From positions 1-53,527 of the forward strand of contig JAHDCX010000021.1 in assembly GCA_020629635.1 (NCBI GenBank): 53,527 bases of DNA. Direction: 5' to 3'. Shown one piece after another: positions 35,571 through 46,619 of the stretch; position 1 is the stretch's first letter, and each line of letters opens with the position of its first letter. Origin of the DNA: Acidimicrobiales bacterium (GTDB taxonomy: Bacteria > Actinomycetota > Acidimicrobiia > Acidimicrobiales > SHLQ01). The position numbers and the translations under genes are program-made. Under the pieces are notes generated by a model. That model was not told the origin of the DNA and did not search any database. It was given only the letters and a program-made list of their open reading frames with translations.

Positions 35571-35622
35571 GGTGTATTCCTACCACTCCTCGACGTGAGT
35601 GGAACCTGCTTGGCTTGGCGTC

Positions 35623-36258
35623 ATGACCCACGACGAGAAGCCCCAGCCCGCAGCCGCACCCGAACCCCGCGCCGGCACGACGCCGCTCGCAAGCACCGGC
35701 CCAGCCGAACACGAGCCCCAACCCGCAGCTACACCCGAACCCGGTCAGGCAGACGACAAGGACTGGACGTGGGTTCTCGATCGACCGTGCGGCGAGTGCG
35801 GGGCGGACGTGGGCGGGCTGAGCGTCGCGGAGGTGGCGACCGCGAACCGCGACATCGCCTCCGCGTTCGCCGCGGCCCTTCGAACCCGCAGTGATGTTCG
35901 CGACCGACCAGAACCAGACGTGTGGAGTCCCCTGGAGTACGGCGCACACGTGCTCGATGTGTTCCGGTTGTTCCTCACCCGGCTCGAACTGATGTTGACC
36001 GAAGATGATCCGCTCTTCGCCAACTGGAACCCCAACGAGACCGCCGAGTCCGATCGCTACGACCTGATGGACCCTGCGATGGTCGCCGACGATCTGGAGT
36101 CGGCCGCAGACGAGCTCGCCACCCGGTTCGAGAGTCTGACCCCACAGCAGTTGGATCGCACAGGGCGACGTTCGGATGGGGCGGCGTTCAGCGTCCTGTC
36201 ATTTGCTCGCTACGAGATCCACGACCCCATCCACCACCTCTGGGACATCGGCGGCTGA
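35623..36258 (+). CDS. DinB-superfamily (mycothiol-dependent-type) protein with Pro-rich N-terminus
   Basis: 211 residues. The first 45 residues are low-complexity Pro/Ala/Glu with a repeated QPAA(A/T)PEP. After this come WTWVLDRPCGECGADVGG, SPLEYGAHVLDVFRLFL and YEIHDPIHHLWDIGG. The His residues in YGAHVLDV and HDPIHHLW suit the metal site of DinB/DUF664 four-helix proteins, which in actinobacteria include mycothiol-dependent isomerases. ATG 35623 is chosen; GTG 35599 is possible. It lies divergent from the AraC-type regulator. Confidence 0.8.
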   Translation: MTHDEKPQPAAAPEPRAGTTPLASTGPAEHEPQPAATPEPGQADDKDWTWVLDRPCGECGADVGGLSVAEVATANRDIASAFAAALRTRSDVRDRPEPDVWSPLEYGAHVLDVFRLFLTRLELMLTEDDPLFANWNPNETAESDRYDLMDPAMVADDLESAADELATRFESLTPQQLDRTGRRSDGAAFSVLSFARYEIHDPIHHLWDIGG

Positions 36259-36262
36259 GGCT

Positions 36263-36307
36263 TCTGTGGACCGCCAGCCCCGCCAAGCGGGGCTGAGCGT
36301 CCACAGA
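36263..36307. repeat. 45-bp palindromic repeat, copy 1 (inverted)
   Basis: TCTGTGGA...TCCACAGA outer arms with AGCCCCGC...GCGGGGCT inner arms. Its reverse complement is identical to copies 2 and 3 except for the central loop. It lies between the convergent ends of the DinB-like and flavoprotein genes, where it may also terminate transcription. Confidence 0.9.
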
Positions 36308-36312
36308 TCGGC

Positions 36313-37698
36313 TCAGAGGGGCTGCAGGTCGTCGAGGATCCACGGAAGAAGCTCGCCCACCGTTGGGTGGGTGAACACGGCCTTGCGGAACGTCCGGTAG
36401 CTCTGCCTCGCATACATGAACGGGGCGAAGATGTTGATGATCTCATCGCCACCAACCCCGAGGATGGACACGCCGAGGAACTCCTCGGTGTCGGCATCCA
36501 CGAGGATCTTGATCATCCCGGCGGTTTCGTCCTTCTCCTTGGCTCGGGAGATGGCCGCCATCGGGCGGGTCGCCATCAACACGTTGCGACCGCTCTCGCG
36601 GGCTTCACGTTCGGTCATGCCGATCCGACCGAGCGGCGGATCGATGAACATGGCGTGGATCGGGATGCGGCCGGCGAGGGTTCGGTCACCTTCGCCGGTG
36701 TAGTTGTCCCAGAAGGTCTCACCGTCGTTGACTGAGGTGTGGGTGAACGCGCCTCGCCCGTTCACGTCGCCGATCGCGTAGATGTGGTCGACGTTTGTTC
36801 GAAGCGCATCATCAACCGTGATGTACCCCCGCTGGTTGGCTTCCACTCCGGCCGCTTCCAGCGCGAGGCGGTCGCTGTTCGGTACCCGGCCGACGGCGAG
36901 CAGAAGGTGACTCCCGACGAGGGTCTCGACGCCGTCGGCGCCGTCGAAGGTGACCTCGATGCGACCGGCTTCGGGCTGCGCCACCGATTGCACGAGCGCG
37001 CCCGTGCGGACGTCTATCCCCTCATCGATGAGGATCTGCTTCGCAGACTCGGCGATGTCGGCATCCTCACGAGGCATCAGCTGATCAGCTCCCTCGAGCA
37101 CCGTCACGCGACTCCCGAAGCGCCGGAAGATCTGCCCGAACTCGAGGCCGATGTAGCTGCCACCCACGATCATCAAGTGCTCAGGCACCTCGGTGAGATC
37201 GAGCAGCCGAGCGTTGTCGAGCCAGTCGACGTCGTCGATGCCGGAGATGGGTACTTCGAGCGGCCGGGTGCCGGTGTGGATGACGATCGTGTCTCCGGAG
37301 ATGACGTGCCCGCCGACCTCAACCTCGTGCGCAGAGACGAAGTGGGCGTACTCCGCGAAGAAGTCGACATTCTCCATTGTGCGGAGCCACTGCTCCATGC
37401 CGGTGTTGTCGCGCATGGCGTTCATCCGCTTCATCACGGTGTCGAAGTTGATCGAGATCTCCGGAATCTCAACGCCGAACTCCGGTCCCCGGCGCGCCAT
37501 GTGCGCGGCGCGGGCGCTGGCCACCAGCGTCTTGGTTGGCGTGCAGCCGTAGTTGACGCACGACCCACCAACCTTGCCTCCCTCGATGAGGGCCACTCGT
37601 TTGCCTGCGGCGCTCAGCCGCGGGATCACTGTCCCGGTCGCCTGTCCTGTCCCGATCCAGATCACGTCGTAGTTCGTCATGATCCCGAAACCCGGCAT
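36313..37698 (-). CDS. Mercuric-reductase/Lpd-like FAD-dependent disulfide oxidoreductase
   Basis: 461 residues. The FAD motif is VIWIGTGQATGT, the redox disulfide GGSCVNYGCTPTKTL (Cys-x4-Cys), the NAD motif MIVGGSYIGLEFGQI, the second FAD motif IYAIGDVNGRGAF and the C-terminal His-Glu pair HPTVGELLPW. All catalytic residues of the class are present. The extra Cys pair of MerA is absent, so it is a general dithiol or pyridine-nucleotide oxidoreductase of the MerA/lipoamide-dehydrogenase group. ATG 37698 has a good upstream GGGGG/GAAGG; ATG 37680 (MTNYDV) is an alternative. Flanked on both sides by copies of the 45-bp palindrome. Confidence 0.9.
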   Translation of the reverse strand: MPGFGIMTNYDVIWIGTGQATGTVIPRLSAAGKRVALIEGGKVGGSCVNYGCTPTKTLVASARAAHMARRGPEFGVEIPEISINFDTVMKRMNAMRDNTGMEQWLRTMENVDFFAEYAHFVSAHEVEVGGHVISGDTIVIHTGTRPLEVPISGIDDVDWLDNARLLDLTEVPEHLMIVGGSYIGLEFGQIFRRFGSRVTVLEGADQLMPREDADIAESAKQILIDEGIDVRTGALVQSVAQPEAGRIEVTFDGADGVETLVGSHLLLAVGRVPNSDRLALEAAGVEANQRGYITVDDALRTNVDHIYAIGDVNGRGAFTHTSVNDGETFWDNYTGEGDRTLAGRIPIHAMFIDPPLGRIGMTEREARESGRNVLMATRPMAAISRAKEKDETAGMIKILVDADTEEFLGVSILGVGGDEIINIFAPFMYARQSYRTFRKAVFTHPTVGELLPWILDDLQPL

Positions 37699-37721
37699 TC
37701 AACCCCCGCCTTCCCAGGGCT

Positions 37722-37766
37722 TCTGTGGACGCTCAGCCCCGCTCCGCGGGGCTGGCGGTCCACAGA
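37722..37766. repeat. 45-bp palindromic repeat, copy 2
   Basis: The same element in the opposite orientation to copy 1 (loop CTCC region differs). It lies between two divergent start codons, 24 bp from the ATG at 37698, so here it cannot act simply as a gene-end terminator. Confidence 0.9.
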
Positions 37767-37850
37767 TGCCGTTGGTCGAGCTGTCAGACGGCTCCCCTAC
37801 GGTGAAGGACCAACTTCCCCCGACATCCCAACCGTTCGGAGGGAAGCAGA

Positions 37851-38753
37851 ATGCACGAGCTGTACCACCACGCGGCGACTCATCACGGGGTCGTCTCGCG
37901 AATCGAGGCCCAATCGCTGGGGCTCACGAGCAAACGCGTCGACCGCGCCGTCCAGCGAGGAGTCCTCAGGAGGGCGGCGCCACGGGTGTTCGTCATCGCC
38001 GGGGCTCCGTCCACCTGGGAACAGCGGTGCCGGGTCGCCGCGCTCTCCGCTGCGGGAGTGGTCAGCCACCGATCGGCTGCACGACTCCATCAGCTGGATG
38101 GATTCTCGGCCGGCCCGGTCGAGGTGACTGTCCCGAAGACTCGGAGACCTCGAGGCATTGACGCAACCATCCATCGCTCGACGCAGTTTGATCTGATCGA
38201 CGCCACGAGCATCGATGCATTGCCGGTCACTGGCCTTCCTCGGACTGTGCTGGACCTCGGCGCCGTGATCTCAACAAACCGGCTCGACCACGTGATCGAT
38301 CAGGTCCTTCGCGATCGCGCCTGCACGCTGCAAGACCTCTGGACAACCTTGATCATTCACTCCGAACACGGCCGCAACGGGTGCGGGCCACTCCGCTTGC
38401 TCCTCGATCGCCGGACCGAGAGCGACCCGATCCCGGACAGCGCATGGAACCGCATGGTCGGTCAACTCCTCGAGTATCGAGGTCTCGCTCCCCGCTATGA
38501 ATACGAGATCCGGACCGCGACCGGCCGGTTCATTGGTCGAACCGATCTCGCCTTCCCGACTCGGAGGCTGGCAATCGAGTTGGACAGTCGACGATGGCAC
38601 ATGACGCGCAACGCATTCGTCAACGACCCGCGACGGAAGAACCAGCTCACCCTTGCCGGCTGGACCGTGTTGTCGTTCACCTGGGATGACTACAAGGAGC
38701 GACCTCAAGACCTCGTGCGGACCGTGATCGACGCCCTCAACCCGGCCGCGTAA
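37851..38753 (+). CDS. AbiEi-type HTH plus DUF559 (Vsr-like nuclease fold) protein
   Basis: 300 residues. The N-terminal region (HGVVSRIEAQSLGLTSKRVDRAV, then RGVLRRAAPRVFVI) is the winged-helix domain seen in AbiEi antitoxin-like proteins. The last 100 residues contain RTDLAFPTRRLAIELDSRRWH, NDPRRKNQLTLAGWTVLSFT and RPQDLV, the DUF559 form of the PD-(D/E)xK/Vsr nuclease fold with acidic residues in place. Such proteins are common in actinobacteria, usually without a toxin partner. GGAGGGAA lies before the ATG. Copies 2 and 3 of the 45-bp palindrome flank the gene in the same orientation. Confidence 0.82.
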   Translation: MHELYHHAATHHGVVSRIEAQSLGLTSKRVDRAVQRGVLRRAAPRVFVIAGAPSTWEQRCRVAALSAAGVVSHRSAARLHQLDGFSAGPVEVTVPKTRRPRGIDATIHRSTQFDLIDATSIDALPVTGLPRTVLDLGAVISTNRLDHVIDQVLRDRACTLQDLWTTLIIHSEHGRNGCGPLRLLLDRRTESDPIPDSAWNRMVGQLLEYRGLAPRYEYEIRTATGRFIGRTDLAFPTRRLAIELDSRRWHMTRNAFVNDPRRKNQLTLAGWTVLSFTWDDYKERPQDLVRTVIDALNPAA

Positions 38754-38757
38754 GAGT

Positions 38758-38802
38758 TCTGTGGACGCTCAGCCCCGCAGAGCGGGGCTGGCGGTCCACA
38801 GA
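38758..38802. repeat. 45-bp palindromic repeat, copy 3
   Basis: Same orientation as copy 2, differing only in the loop. It lies between the convergent ends of the DUF559 gene and sucD. Confidence 0.9.
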
Positions 38803-38807
38803 TGCCG

Positions 38808-39692
38808 CTACAGGGTGGCGACGATCCCGGCCATGAGGTCGCCCGCTTCGGTCGGGTTGAGGCCGACCTTGACGCCGGCGTCCTCGAGGGCTTCCATCTT
38901 GGCTTTGGCCGTGCCCTTGCCGCCCGACACGATGGCGCCTGCATGGCCCATCTTCTTGCCGGGAGGGGCAGTCACCCCGGCGACGTAAGAGACGACGGGC
39001 TTGGTCACGTTGGCCTTGATGAACTCGGCGGCTTCTTCTTCGGCCGAACCGCCGATCTCACCGATCATCATGATGGCCTCGGTGGCCGGGTCAGCTTCGA
39101 ACGCGGCGAGGCAGTCGATGAAGTTGGTGCCGGGCACGGGGTCACCGCCGATGCCGACCGAGGTCGTCACGCCGATGTCCTTCTCTTTGAGCTCGTACAC
39201 CGCCTGATAGGTGAGCGTGCCGGACCGGCTCACGACACCAACCGGACCTCCGGCCTTGGCGATGTGGCCTGCGGTGATCCCGATGTTGGCCTTGCCGGGG
39301 CTGATGATGCCCGGGCAGTTGGGACCGAGCAGACGGGTGTCGGGGAAGTCGGCCTTGAGCTTGTTGTAGAACCACGCCTCGTCGTGCATCGGCACGCCCT
39401 CGGTGATCACCACCACGAGCTCCATGCCGGCTTCGGCGGCCTCCATCACGGCGCCCTTCACCGCAACCGGCGGCACGAACACGCAGCTCGCGTTGCAGCC
39501 AGTCGCTTCCTTCGCCTCGGCGACGCTGGCGTAGATCGGCGTGCCGTCCACATCGGTGCCGGCTTTCTTTGGATGGGTGCCGGCGACGACCTGCGTGCCG
39601 TACTCCTTGTTGAGGTTGCCGTAGTAGCGGCCCGTCGAGCCGGTCAGGCCTTGGTAGACGACCTTGGTGGTCTCGTCCAGAAAGATGCTCAT
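38808..39692 (-). CDS. sucD: Succinate-CoA ligase alpha subunit
   Basis: 294 residues, full length. [17 protein letters not shown] near the N-terminus is the CoA-binding Rossmann part, [11 protein letters not shown] follows, and the phosphorylated active-site His lies in [15 protein letters not shown]. With SucC it makes succinate and CoA from succinyl-CoA with formation of NTP in the TCA cycle. It lies 52 bp after sucC and ends next to the third palindromic repeat. Confidence 0.97.
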
Positions 39693-46417: not shown

Positions 46418-46467
46418 CGCCCTCCAAGCCTTCCACGCCTGAGCGGCCCAAAAGGTTCTGTGTTTTT

Positions 46468-46531
46468 GCCGCACGGCTCGCAACAGGCTCGCACTGCGGA
46501 ACGCCCGAGGCCCCAACCGCACCGACCGGCA
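46468..46531. repeat. 64-bp direct repeat, copy 1
   Basis: The sequence from GCCGCACGGCTCGCAACAGG to ACCGCACCGACCGGCA recurs exactly 88 bp downstream. It lies in the 220-bp intergenic region between the sigma factor and the LLM gene. Confidence 0.9.
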
Positions 46532-46555
46532 CAGCCGGACCGGCGCTACGTCTTC

Positions 46556-46619
46556 GCCGCACGGCTCGCAACAGGCTCGCACTGCGGAACGCCCGAGGCC
46601 CCAACCGCACCGACCGGCA
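46556..46619. repeat. 64-bp direct repeat, copy 2
   Basis: An exact second copy, ending 19 bp before the LLM gene's ATG. The 24 bases between the copies are different. Confidence 0.9.

Follow-up and report, generated by a model that had tools for sequence, protein, structure and literature searches.

A 45-bp palindrome bracketing an AbiEi-DUF559 gene of an Acidimicrobiales bacterium looks like one half of a repeat-and-nuclease partnership

The stretch analysed here (called the window; all 53,527 nucleotides of contig JAHDCX010000021.1 from an Acidimicrobiales bacterium) carries three copies of a 45-bp palindromic element, two of which bracket a gene for an AbiEi-DUF559 protein. We consider that the palindrome is probably the cognate site of this protein, in a partnership like that of repetitive extragenic palindromes (REPs) with REP-associated tyrosine transposases (RAYTs), built on an unrelated nuclease. 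Most related genes examined are bracketed by matching palindromes, which are gene-specific in sequence and near-fixed in geometry; copies are dispersed through genomes and are present at a site in one species and absent in another. As most of these genes have their own palindrome on either side, the arrangement appears to be a partnership of repeat and nuclease distinct from classical REP/RAYT. The features concerned are as follows.

36263..36307, minus strand: 45-bp element copy 1, in the opposite orientation to copies 2 and 3; the DinB-like gene stop is 4 bp and the flavoprotein stop 5 bp away
37722..37766, plus strand: element copy 2, 45 bp, the upstream bracket; the AbiEi-DUF559 start codon is 84 bp on and the flavoprotein start 23 bp away
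38758..38802, plus strand: element copy 3, 45 bp, the downstream bracket, 4 bp past the AbiEi-DUF559 stop and 5 bp past the sucD stop
37851..38753, plus strand: AbiEi-DUF559 gene, 300 aa, residues 1-194 AbiEi-antitoxin-like and 195-300 Vsr/homing-endonuclease-like; proposed cognate protein of the element
36313..37698, minus strand: pyridine nucleotide-disulphide oxidoreductase (flavoprotein), 461 aa, outside the proposed system
38808..39692, minus strand: sucD, succinyl-CoA ligase alpha subunit, a conserved neighbour and the anchor for comparing the site across species
35599..36258, plus strand: DinB-superfamily gene, a neighbour common to several relatives

The first-pass annotation had placed the palindrome at 36263, 37722 and 38758, and all three copies were recovered, with a match in none of 100 shuffles. 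When oriented alike, the copies differ solely in 3 central bases (TTG, TCC and AGA); the identity claimed for them thus stands, and the variable loop is smaller than the roughly 5 bases first proposed. The outer arms are perfect and 9 bp long (TCTGTGGAC/GTCCACAGA), and the middle is asymmetric, GCTC lying opposite GGCG, as had been described. The common orientation also bore out that copy 1 is inverted and that copies 2 and 3 flank the AbiEi-DUF559 gene in one direction, both on the plus strand. Copies 1 and 3 each lie between two convergent stops, and the gene positions agree with the earlier placing of copy 2 between divergent starts.

A search of eleven genomes of the genus (the own genome, G000, and G009-G018) with seven DUF559 orthologues gave 36 hits in 10 of them, 30 of which had a locus. 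Grouped by score, the 8 best-scoring genes and a gene at the sucD locus of G016 had TCTGTG elements on both sides (9/9, in 8 genomes), while no such element lay within 1.5 kb of the 21 other hits with a locus or of 5 further hits (L161-L165). The G016 gene (L064:3802-4884) looks frameshifted, its other piece being the 36th hit, and both of its bracketing elements are intact. Among the 26 hits without TCTGTG elements, 23 were bracketed by a different matching sequence, two were not and one fell outside the test; G016 has 11 AbiEi-DUF559 genes among its 12 hits. The bracket test itself was indifferent to sequence: the 330 bp before and after a gene were compared, and a score of 36 or more was taken as a match. 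The genes tested came from the genus, the order and the L052, L054 and L063 genomes; 44 of 51 matched, and again 44 of 51 when a Tsukamurella gene replaced the frameshifted one. Five of five further G016 genes and one more G396 gene also matched, which brings the bracketed full-length AbiEi-DUF559 genes to 50 of 57 overall, though these genes are related and hence do not represent independent events. Outside the 57 stand the fragments L160 and L187-L189, five hits from a separate search and a G396 gene that lies at the margin of its stretch; a partial gene of the own genome, L153, was not bracketed. The two elements are in mixed orientation, not always inverted, and the upstream one lies about 36 to 161 bp ahead of the gene. 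Of the 44 upstream stretches that matched, 38 contained a perfect-armed palindrome (median 48 bp, 31 of the 38 at 41-55 bp); among random 66-mers, 19 of 390 had such arms.

Several controls bear on this signature. With open reading frames (ORFs) called in the same way, 33 of 47 DUF559 ORFs matched against 8 of 474 other ORFs of 220-380 aa in DNA of G012, G018 and G000; some of these 8 look like repeated or mobile genes; an earlier version with a composition filter, which many DUF559 genes fail, gave 16 of 25 against 3 of 265. Among AbiEi genes that lack the nuclease domain and directly precede an AbiEii gene, 0 of 12 were bracketed (top score 30). The flanks of the whole operon (AbiEi plus AbiEii) could be tested for six of these twelve, and a Rhodococcus operon scored 87 beyond its second gene from a non-palindromic repeat. 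The flanks of a DUF559-only gene of Methylophaga did not match (score 17). When flanks of different genes were paired, outliers of 54, 61 and 78 appeared, which were tentatively put down to orthologues.

The sequences of the brackets are specific to the gene. Among 69 pairs of paralogues from the same genome, the highest element similarity was 0.33, on a strict measure by which TCTGTG elements of different species mostly reach 0.07 to 0.39. The ends TTTGT...ACAAA are common to three G016 genes, and two TCTGTG-bracketed genes of that genome differ in their arms, with TCTGTGGTC sites at one and TCTGTGGAG/GGAC sites at the other. Protein and element similarity were correlated over 44 genes (Mantel 0.207, none of 999 permutations as high), and close element similarity was confined to proteins at least 70% identical. 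It has been considered that the repeats are passive and of other origin, and that DUF559 genes land beside them, for example by gathering in the same gaps; the copies in G012, G014 and G018, which lack a bracketed gene of the TCTGTG type, speak for it. Paralogues of one genome, however, have different palindromes that match at both ends of each gene, and shared hot spots are disfavoured because they would not give gene-specific sequences, which makes this origin highly improbable.

The window protein is, according to its modelled structure, an AbiEi-like DNA-binding part joined to a Vsr/homing-endonuclease-like domain. Its Pfam scores fall just under the cut-offs (MTES_1575 33.6/38.2, AbiEi_4 23.8/25, DUF559 19/20.6), and it matches the AbiEi models of PADLOC with an E value of 9e-23. 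The AlphaFold model has a mean predicted local distance difference test value of 74, falling below 50 at residues 247-254. Residues 1-194 of the model superpose on the AbiEi antitoxin 6y8q (Z 11.8, 180 residues, root-mean-square deviation 4.9) and on M. tuberculosis Rv2827c (1zel, Z 8.1), and residues 195-300 on 3hrl (Z 11.5), I-Bth0305I (3r3p, Z 11.0) and Vsr (1cw0, Z 9.5). The Vsr-like fold suggested in the first-pass annotation agrees with the last two values. The nuclease part carries a D..ExD..H motif, which we take to be catalytic by analogy; a pattern search found ExD followed by H in 49 of 51 homologues. No Y1_Tnp match was found in the protein with Pfam, and no AbiEii nucleotidyltransferase toxin gene lies beside the window gene, whose neighbours are the flavoprotein gene and sucD.

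The element is dispersed through the own genome (4.45 Mb in 37 contigs), where 23 copies of 45 bp were found rather than the three of the window, 22 with perfect 9-bp arms and one with a single mismatch. The perfect-arm copies all keep this length although a spacer of 12-42 bases was permitted. No place with two mismatches was found and one with three, the number that a reversed control pattern also yields. BLAST with the whole copy and its flank recovered 22 of the 23 places and otherwise short fragments at E 0.24 or worse, with no copies of decayed arms among them. Relative to the consensus, GGCW-TCTGTGGAC-N27-GTCCACAGA-WGCC, in which the GGCW...WGCC flanks are also conserved, substitutions affect 1 of 414 arm positions and 90 of 552 interior positions (the 3 central ones excluded). 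A heuristic gene call, which put two copies inside a gene, perhaps wrongly, places 8 copies in convergent, 11 in tandem and 4 in divergent gaps, and 14 of the 23 have a stop codon within 16 bp. Convergent gaps are modestly enriched (8/23 vs 14/96, Fisher p 0.036), and the four copies between divergent genes show that the element is not always at gene ends, a pattern that the first-pass annotation had linked to simple terminators.

A scan of the eleven genus genomes with the shorter pattern TCTGTG-N30..37-CACAGA gave 23, 30, 36, 34, 6, 13, 18, 8, 37, 20 and 5 copies (G000, then G009-G018). In the eight genomes from elsewhere in the family, outside the genus, it gave 0-2 copies, and a control pattern 0-5. 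A sole good match among these few outside the genus, a 45-bp TCTGTGAACC...GGTTCACAGA palindrome in G001 (L116, G001:C3:73133-73177), may be a real element. In G000, G009 and G010 every copy among the matches listed is 45 bp long, and the arm ends are species-specific (GGAC, GGAG and CAG/AAG, respectively); in the remaining genus genomes the arm ends are those of individually inspected loci. Close pairs of elements are spaced regularly, all ten in G010 at 60 bp, one in G011 at 59 bp and two in G016 at 59 and 61 bp. Copy number, which the first-pass annotation had expected to follow the gene, tended to be higher in the eight genomes with a TCTGTG-bracketed gene (8-37) than in those without (6, 5 and 18; one-sided exact p 0.024), a comparison of 11 genomes of which most are incomplete; the genomes without such a gene did not stand out as rich in copies. 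In a class-wide sample of 395 genomes, the GGAC form with one mismatch allowed matched the own genome and once in G096, the latter taken as chance. A scan of public contigs gave 23 stretches with elements of 43-47 bp, among others from uncultured Acidimicrobiales, Ilumatobacteraceae and Rhodocyclaceae, plus lone matches in unrelated groups; the exact element was not found in the viral contigs searched. The Ilumatobacteraceae stretches L052, L054, L061 and L067 have TCTGTGGAC elements of 45 bp, for which a cognate gene was not found. The Rhodocyclaceae drafts L051, L056, L058, L060 and L068 carry a 56-57 bp palindrome, CTAGGGTCTGTGGACATTTGTATGGCG..., with the 9-bp arms in common; these were taken as look-alikes, and G416, the one such genome searched, had no DUF559 match at E 1e-10.

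Dispersed copies of other elements were found in G012, G018, G396 and Tsukamurella. TTTGTG-type elements of G012 lie at three further places and form three tandem pairs at 60 bp, and all places found by BLAST also fit the 45-bp pattern; the 45-bp length and a tandem spacing near 60 bp thus recur in two sequence families. When elements were traced through 395 kb of G012 and a further 289 kb from G018, two more had a single extra copy. The G396 element is at four further places in 202 kb, with up to five copies in tandem at a 71-bp period, although these places are mostly at contig ends and the true number may be lower. One G396 contig (L273:1-329) opens with at least five such tandem copies, and the repeat may break assemblies. 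In Tsukamurella tyrosinosolvens six places were found on three records. Two of these presumably flank the gene itself, one sits in a convergent gap at 8 bp from either stop, and another in a divergent gap. A homologue of the Tsukamurella protein was not found in the phage collection.

The same site can be compared between species behind sucD, where seven of nine other genus genomes have an intact element of the same type, G018 has half of one and G012 none. Each species has its own arms and interior, with a tandem pair in G010 and G011. In G018 (L095) the sequence beyond the half element is unrelated and, judged by eye, may belong to a mobile element that inserted there. At eight sucD loci of other genera, other hairpins or none were seen, as judged by eye. 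The DUF559 orthologues are 47-56% identical and the neighbouring sucD 88-94%. The flavoprotein, which has a complete pyridine nucleotide-disulphide oxidoreductase architecture, looks incidental to the repeat because G016 lacks it at the orthologous place, where one element copy is missing as well. Five dispersed sites were read in a relative, the partly aligned cases L082 and L090 being left out: four were empty, namely L092, L093, the G009 site L175 (in G012) and the G016 site L065 (in G018), and the fifth, L091, was filled in G012 by another element variant. Both sides could be aligned for L091 and L175 and one side for the other three. An ordinary hairpin with a T run occupies two of the four empty sites. 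At L081, elements occur here and in G010, not clearly at the same point.

The palindrome looks, from its sequence, like a double-stranded binding site and not an RNA hairpin. Left and right interiors pair no better within a copy than between copies (z -0.1, -0.7 and -1.8 in G000, G009 and G010; the test rests on interiors, the arms varying too little), and for this reason selection appears to act on a pair of half-sites, each about 21-22 bp long and set at a fixed distance. The intrinsic terminator scan did not pick the window copies, no T run follows them, and no Rfam match was found for the element; an RNA hairpin or terminator was rejected on these grounds. According to the accessible part of PMC7319586, AbiEi binds a pair of 23-bp inverted repeats separated by 3 bp, and two such pairs stand in tandem in the Rv2827c promoter. 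By analogy, the geometry of the element fits the published size of this operator.

We propose that the element would be occupied by a pair of protein molecules, one per half-site, through the AbiEi-type domain, and such binding would fix the length and the 9-bp arms while leaving much of the interior free to vary. The Vsr/homing-endonuclease-like domain would cut or nick at the site, and repair of the break would copy the repeat, and at times the gene too, to new places. A gene with a site at each end would then be a REP/RAYT-like unit, i.e., a fast-evolving nuclease gene with its own repeat scattered through the genome. Binding of the protein to the element is very likely, and for cleavage and spread the chances appear about even. 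The first-pass annotation had drawn the REP/RAYT parallel with a Vsr-like protein that might process or move the repeat; its gene-repeat association is strongly supported (nine genes bracketed by TCTGTG elements, 50/57 overall), and the processing stands at the strength just given. It is also possible, if somewhat doubtful, that this is a second, independently arisen REP system, in which AbiEi and Vsr-like fusions turned a two-half-site operator into a mobile palindromic repeat, with many parallel gene-repeat pairs per genome in at least two classes of Actinomycetota.

Several observations weigh against the palindrome as a mobile cognate site. No target-site duplication was noticed, in copies that were not searched systematically for it. 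No decaying remains of the repeat were seen in the own genome, and sites under continued use would explain the scarcity of decayed copies no less well than the remains of a transposon. Seven of the 57 full-length genes, including the second gene of the own genome (L147), have no matching flanks, and the signature is not unique to DUF559, two Y1 transposase genes being bracketed by their own repeats in the same test. Four of the seven elements traced in G012 and G018 have no copy away from the gene. G012 (6 copies), G018 (5) and G014 (18; 67% complete) carry copies and no bracketed gene of the TCTGTG type, and G413 and G414 carry TCTGTGGAC elements, yet none of their four detected DUF559 genes adjoins one; one of the two genes in each is bracketed by another palindrome (L185 and L186). 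All four empty sites come from the two genomes poorest in copies, G012 and G018, and both flanks were aligned in one of the four.

The main rival is an AbiEi-type autoregulator without mobility, in which copy 2 would be the operator and the scattered copies regulon sites or transcription road-blocks under selection. AbiEi proteins autoregulate through inverted repeats, as far as the accessible part of PMC7319586 describes, the upstream element lies at a short range ahead of the gene, near-invariant arms with variable interiors would be expected of sites in use, and 6 of the 12 nuclease-less AbiEi genes have an upstream palindrome of 36-39 bp. Copies so often next to stops and between convergent genes would nevertheless be odd for operators, and an autoregulator would need neither the downstream bracket, which the nuclease-less AbiEi genes lack, nor the conserved nuclease motif. 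The species also differ in their copies, four of five dispersed sites being empty in a relative, with one flank aligned in most. We regard pure autoregulation as unlikely, and the palindrome as the mobile cognate site of the protein is preferred.

Bidirectional intrinsic terminators that share sequence by descent, with a DUF559 link that reflects gene ends only, are very unlikely. The element does form GC-rich stem-loops right after stops, often between convergent genes, a few T follow it in G009 and G016, and at the two sites in relatives mentioned above its place is taken, by eye, by a common GC hairpin and a run of T. Against termination stand the window copies without a T run, the interiors without covariation, the copies between divergent genes (copy 2 included), the fixed length and invariant arms, which termination does not need, and the few other genes that are bracketed. 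Least probable of all is a classical REP family moved by the Y1 tyrosine transposases (RAYTs) of the own genome. Three Y1_Tnp genes are present there, one at a distance of about 0.8 kb from an element copy, but each has other repeats on its flanks, by eye GGGGTCAGACACC in one case and GGGGTCAAGTCT in two, which ruled them out as movers of the 45-bp element; this element has no GTAG or CGTC tag and no covariation.

Those three genes, L071 (C27:200015-200923), L072 (C4:59710-60630) and L073 (C33:258133-259128), resemble TIRYT/TIRtron units. TIRYTs are RAYT-like genes between long inverted repeats, which form repeat families in some species and often carry GGGGWSAS, according to the accessible part of PMC3733652; by eye, GGGGTCAGACACC and GGGGTCAAGTCT resemble this motif. 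A DnaA-like tail on these RAYTs was conjectured, and Pfam did not support it for the one tested. Elsewhere in the window, a 70-bp direct repeat (46462-46531 and 46550-46619) is 97% identical with a spacing of 88 bp, and three diverged duplications (7500-9682/22129-24293, 27501-28112/31567-32178 and 5900-6234/6637-6974) are 72-82% identical and probably represent paralogous genes.

Compared with known systems, the partnership shares several traits with REP/RAYT. The hallmarks of the latter, in the accessible part of PMC2817692, are a gene flanked by two repeats, coevolution, a gene evolving faster than its neighbours and a presence tied to repeat abundance. Here too, scattered intergenic palindromes are species-specific, and a fast-evolving nuclease gene is flanked by two copies and changes in step with the repeat. 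The protein, in contrast, is AbiEi plus Vsr-like and not HUH Y1, and the element is 45 bp long, lacks the GTAG (GT(A/G)G) head and covarying arms, and has tens of copies against the usual more than 100. The TIRYT likeness is a nuclease gene between matching repeats, but the enzyme there is a tyrosine transposase, and such units are present separately in the own genome. CGTC-tagged REPs are palindromic repeats said to have no dedicated transposase (in the accessible part of PMC3733652); the AbiEi-DUF559 element lacks their tag. The AbiE type IV toxin-antitoxin system (S. agalactiae AbiEi 6y8q, Rv2827c 1zel) is similar in the modelled fold of residues 1-194 and in the operator size given in the accessible part of PMC7319586, and differs in that here there is no AbiEii neighbour, a C-terminal nuclease domain is present, and palindromes lie at either side of the gene as well as elsewhere in the genome. 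Vsr and I-Bth0305I resemble the modelled C-terminal domain in fold and ExD..H motif; here, however, an AbiEi domain is attached, no mismatch-repair or intron context was seen, and a long palindromic site is proposed.

In the open-access literature searched, judged on titles and abstract openings, no report of an association between palindromes and AbiEi-DUF559 genes and no role assigned to these genes was found, and the accessible part of the RepRanger REP survey (PMC12306157) contains, by a term search, no words that start with nuclease, AbiE or DUF. If this system is a non-HUH counterpart of RAYTs, links between palindromic repeats and nucleases would have arisen on at least two occasions and with different chemistry. 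The many parallel pairs per genome, such as the 11 genes of G016, would make the co-evolution of nuclease and site directly testable. The AbiEi-DUF559 family would gain a definite candidate substrate, and scattered palindromes in genomes without RAYT may find a possible explanation.

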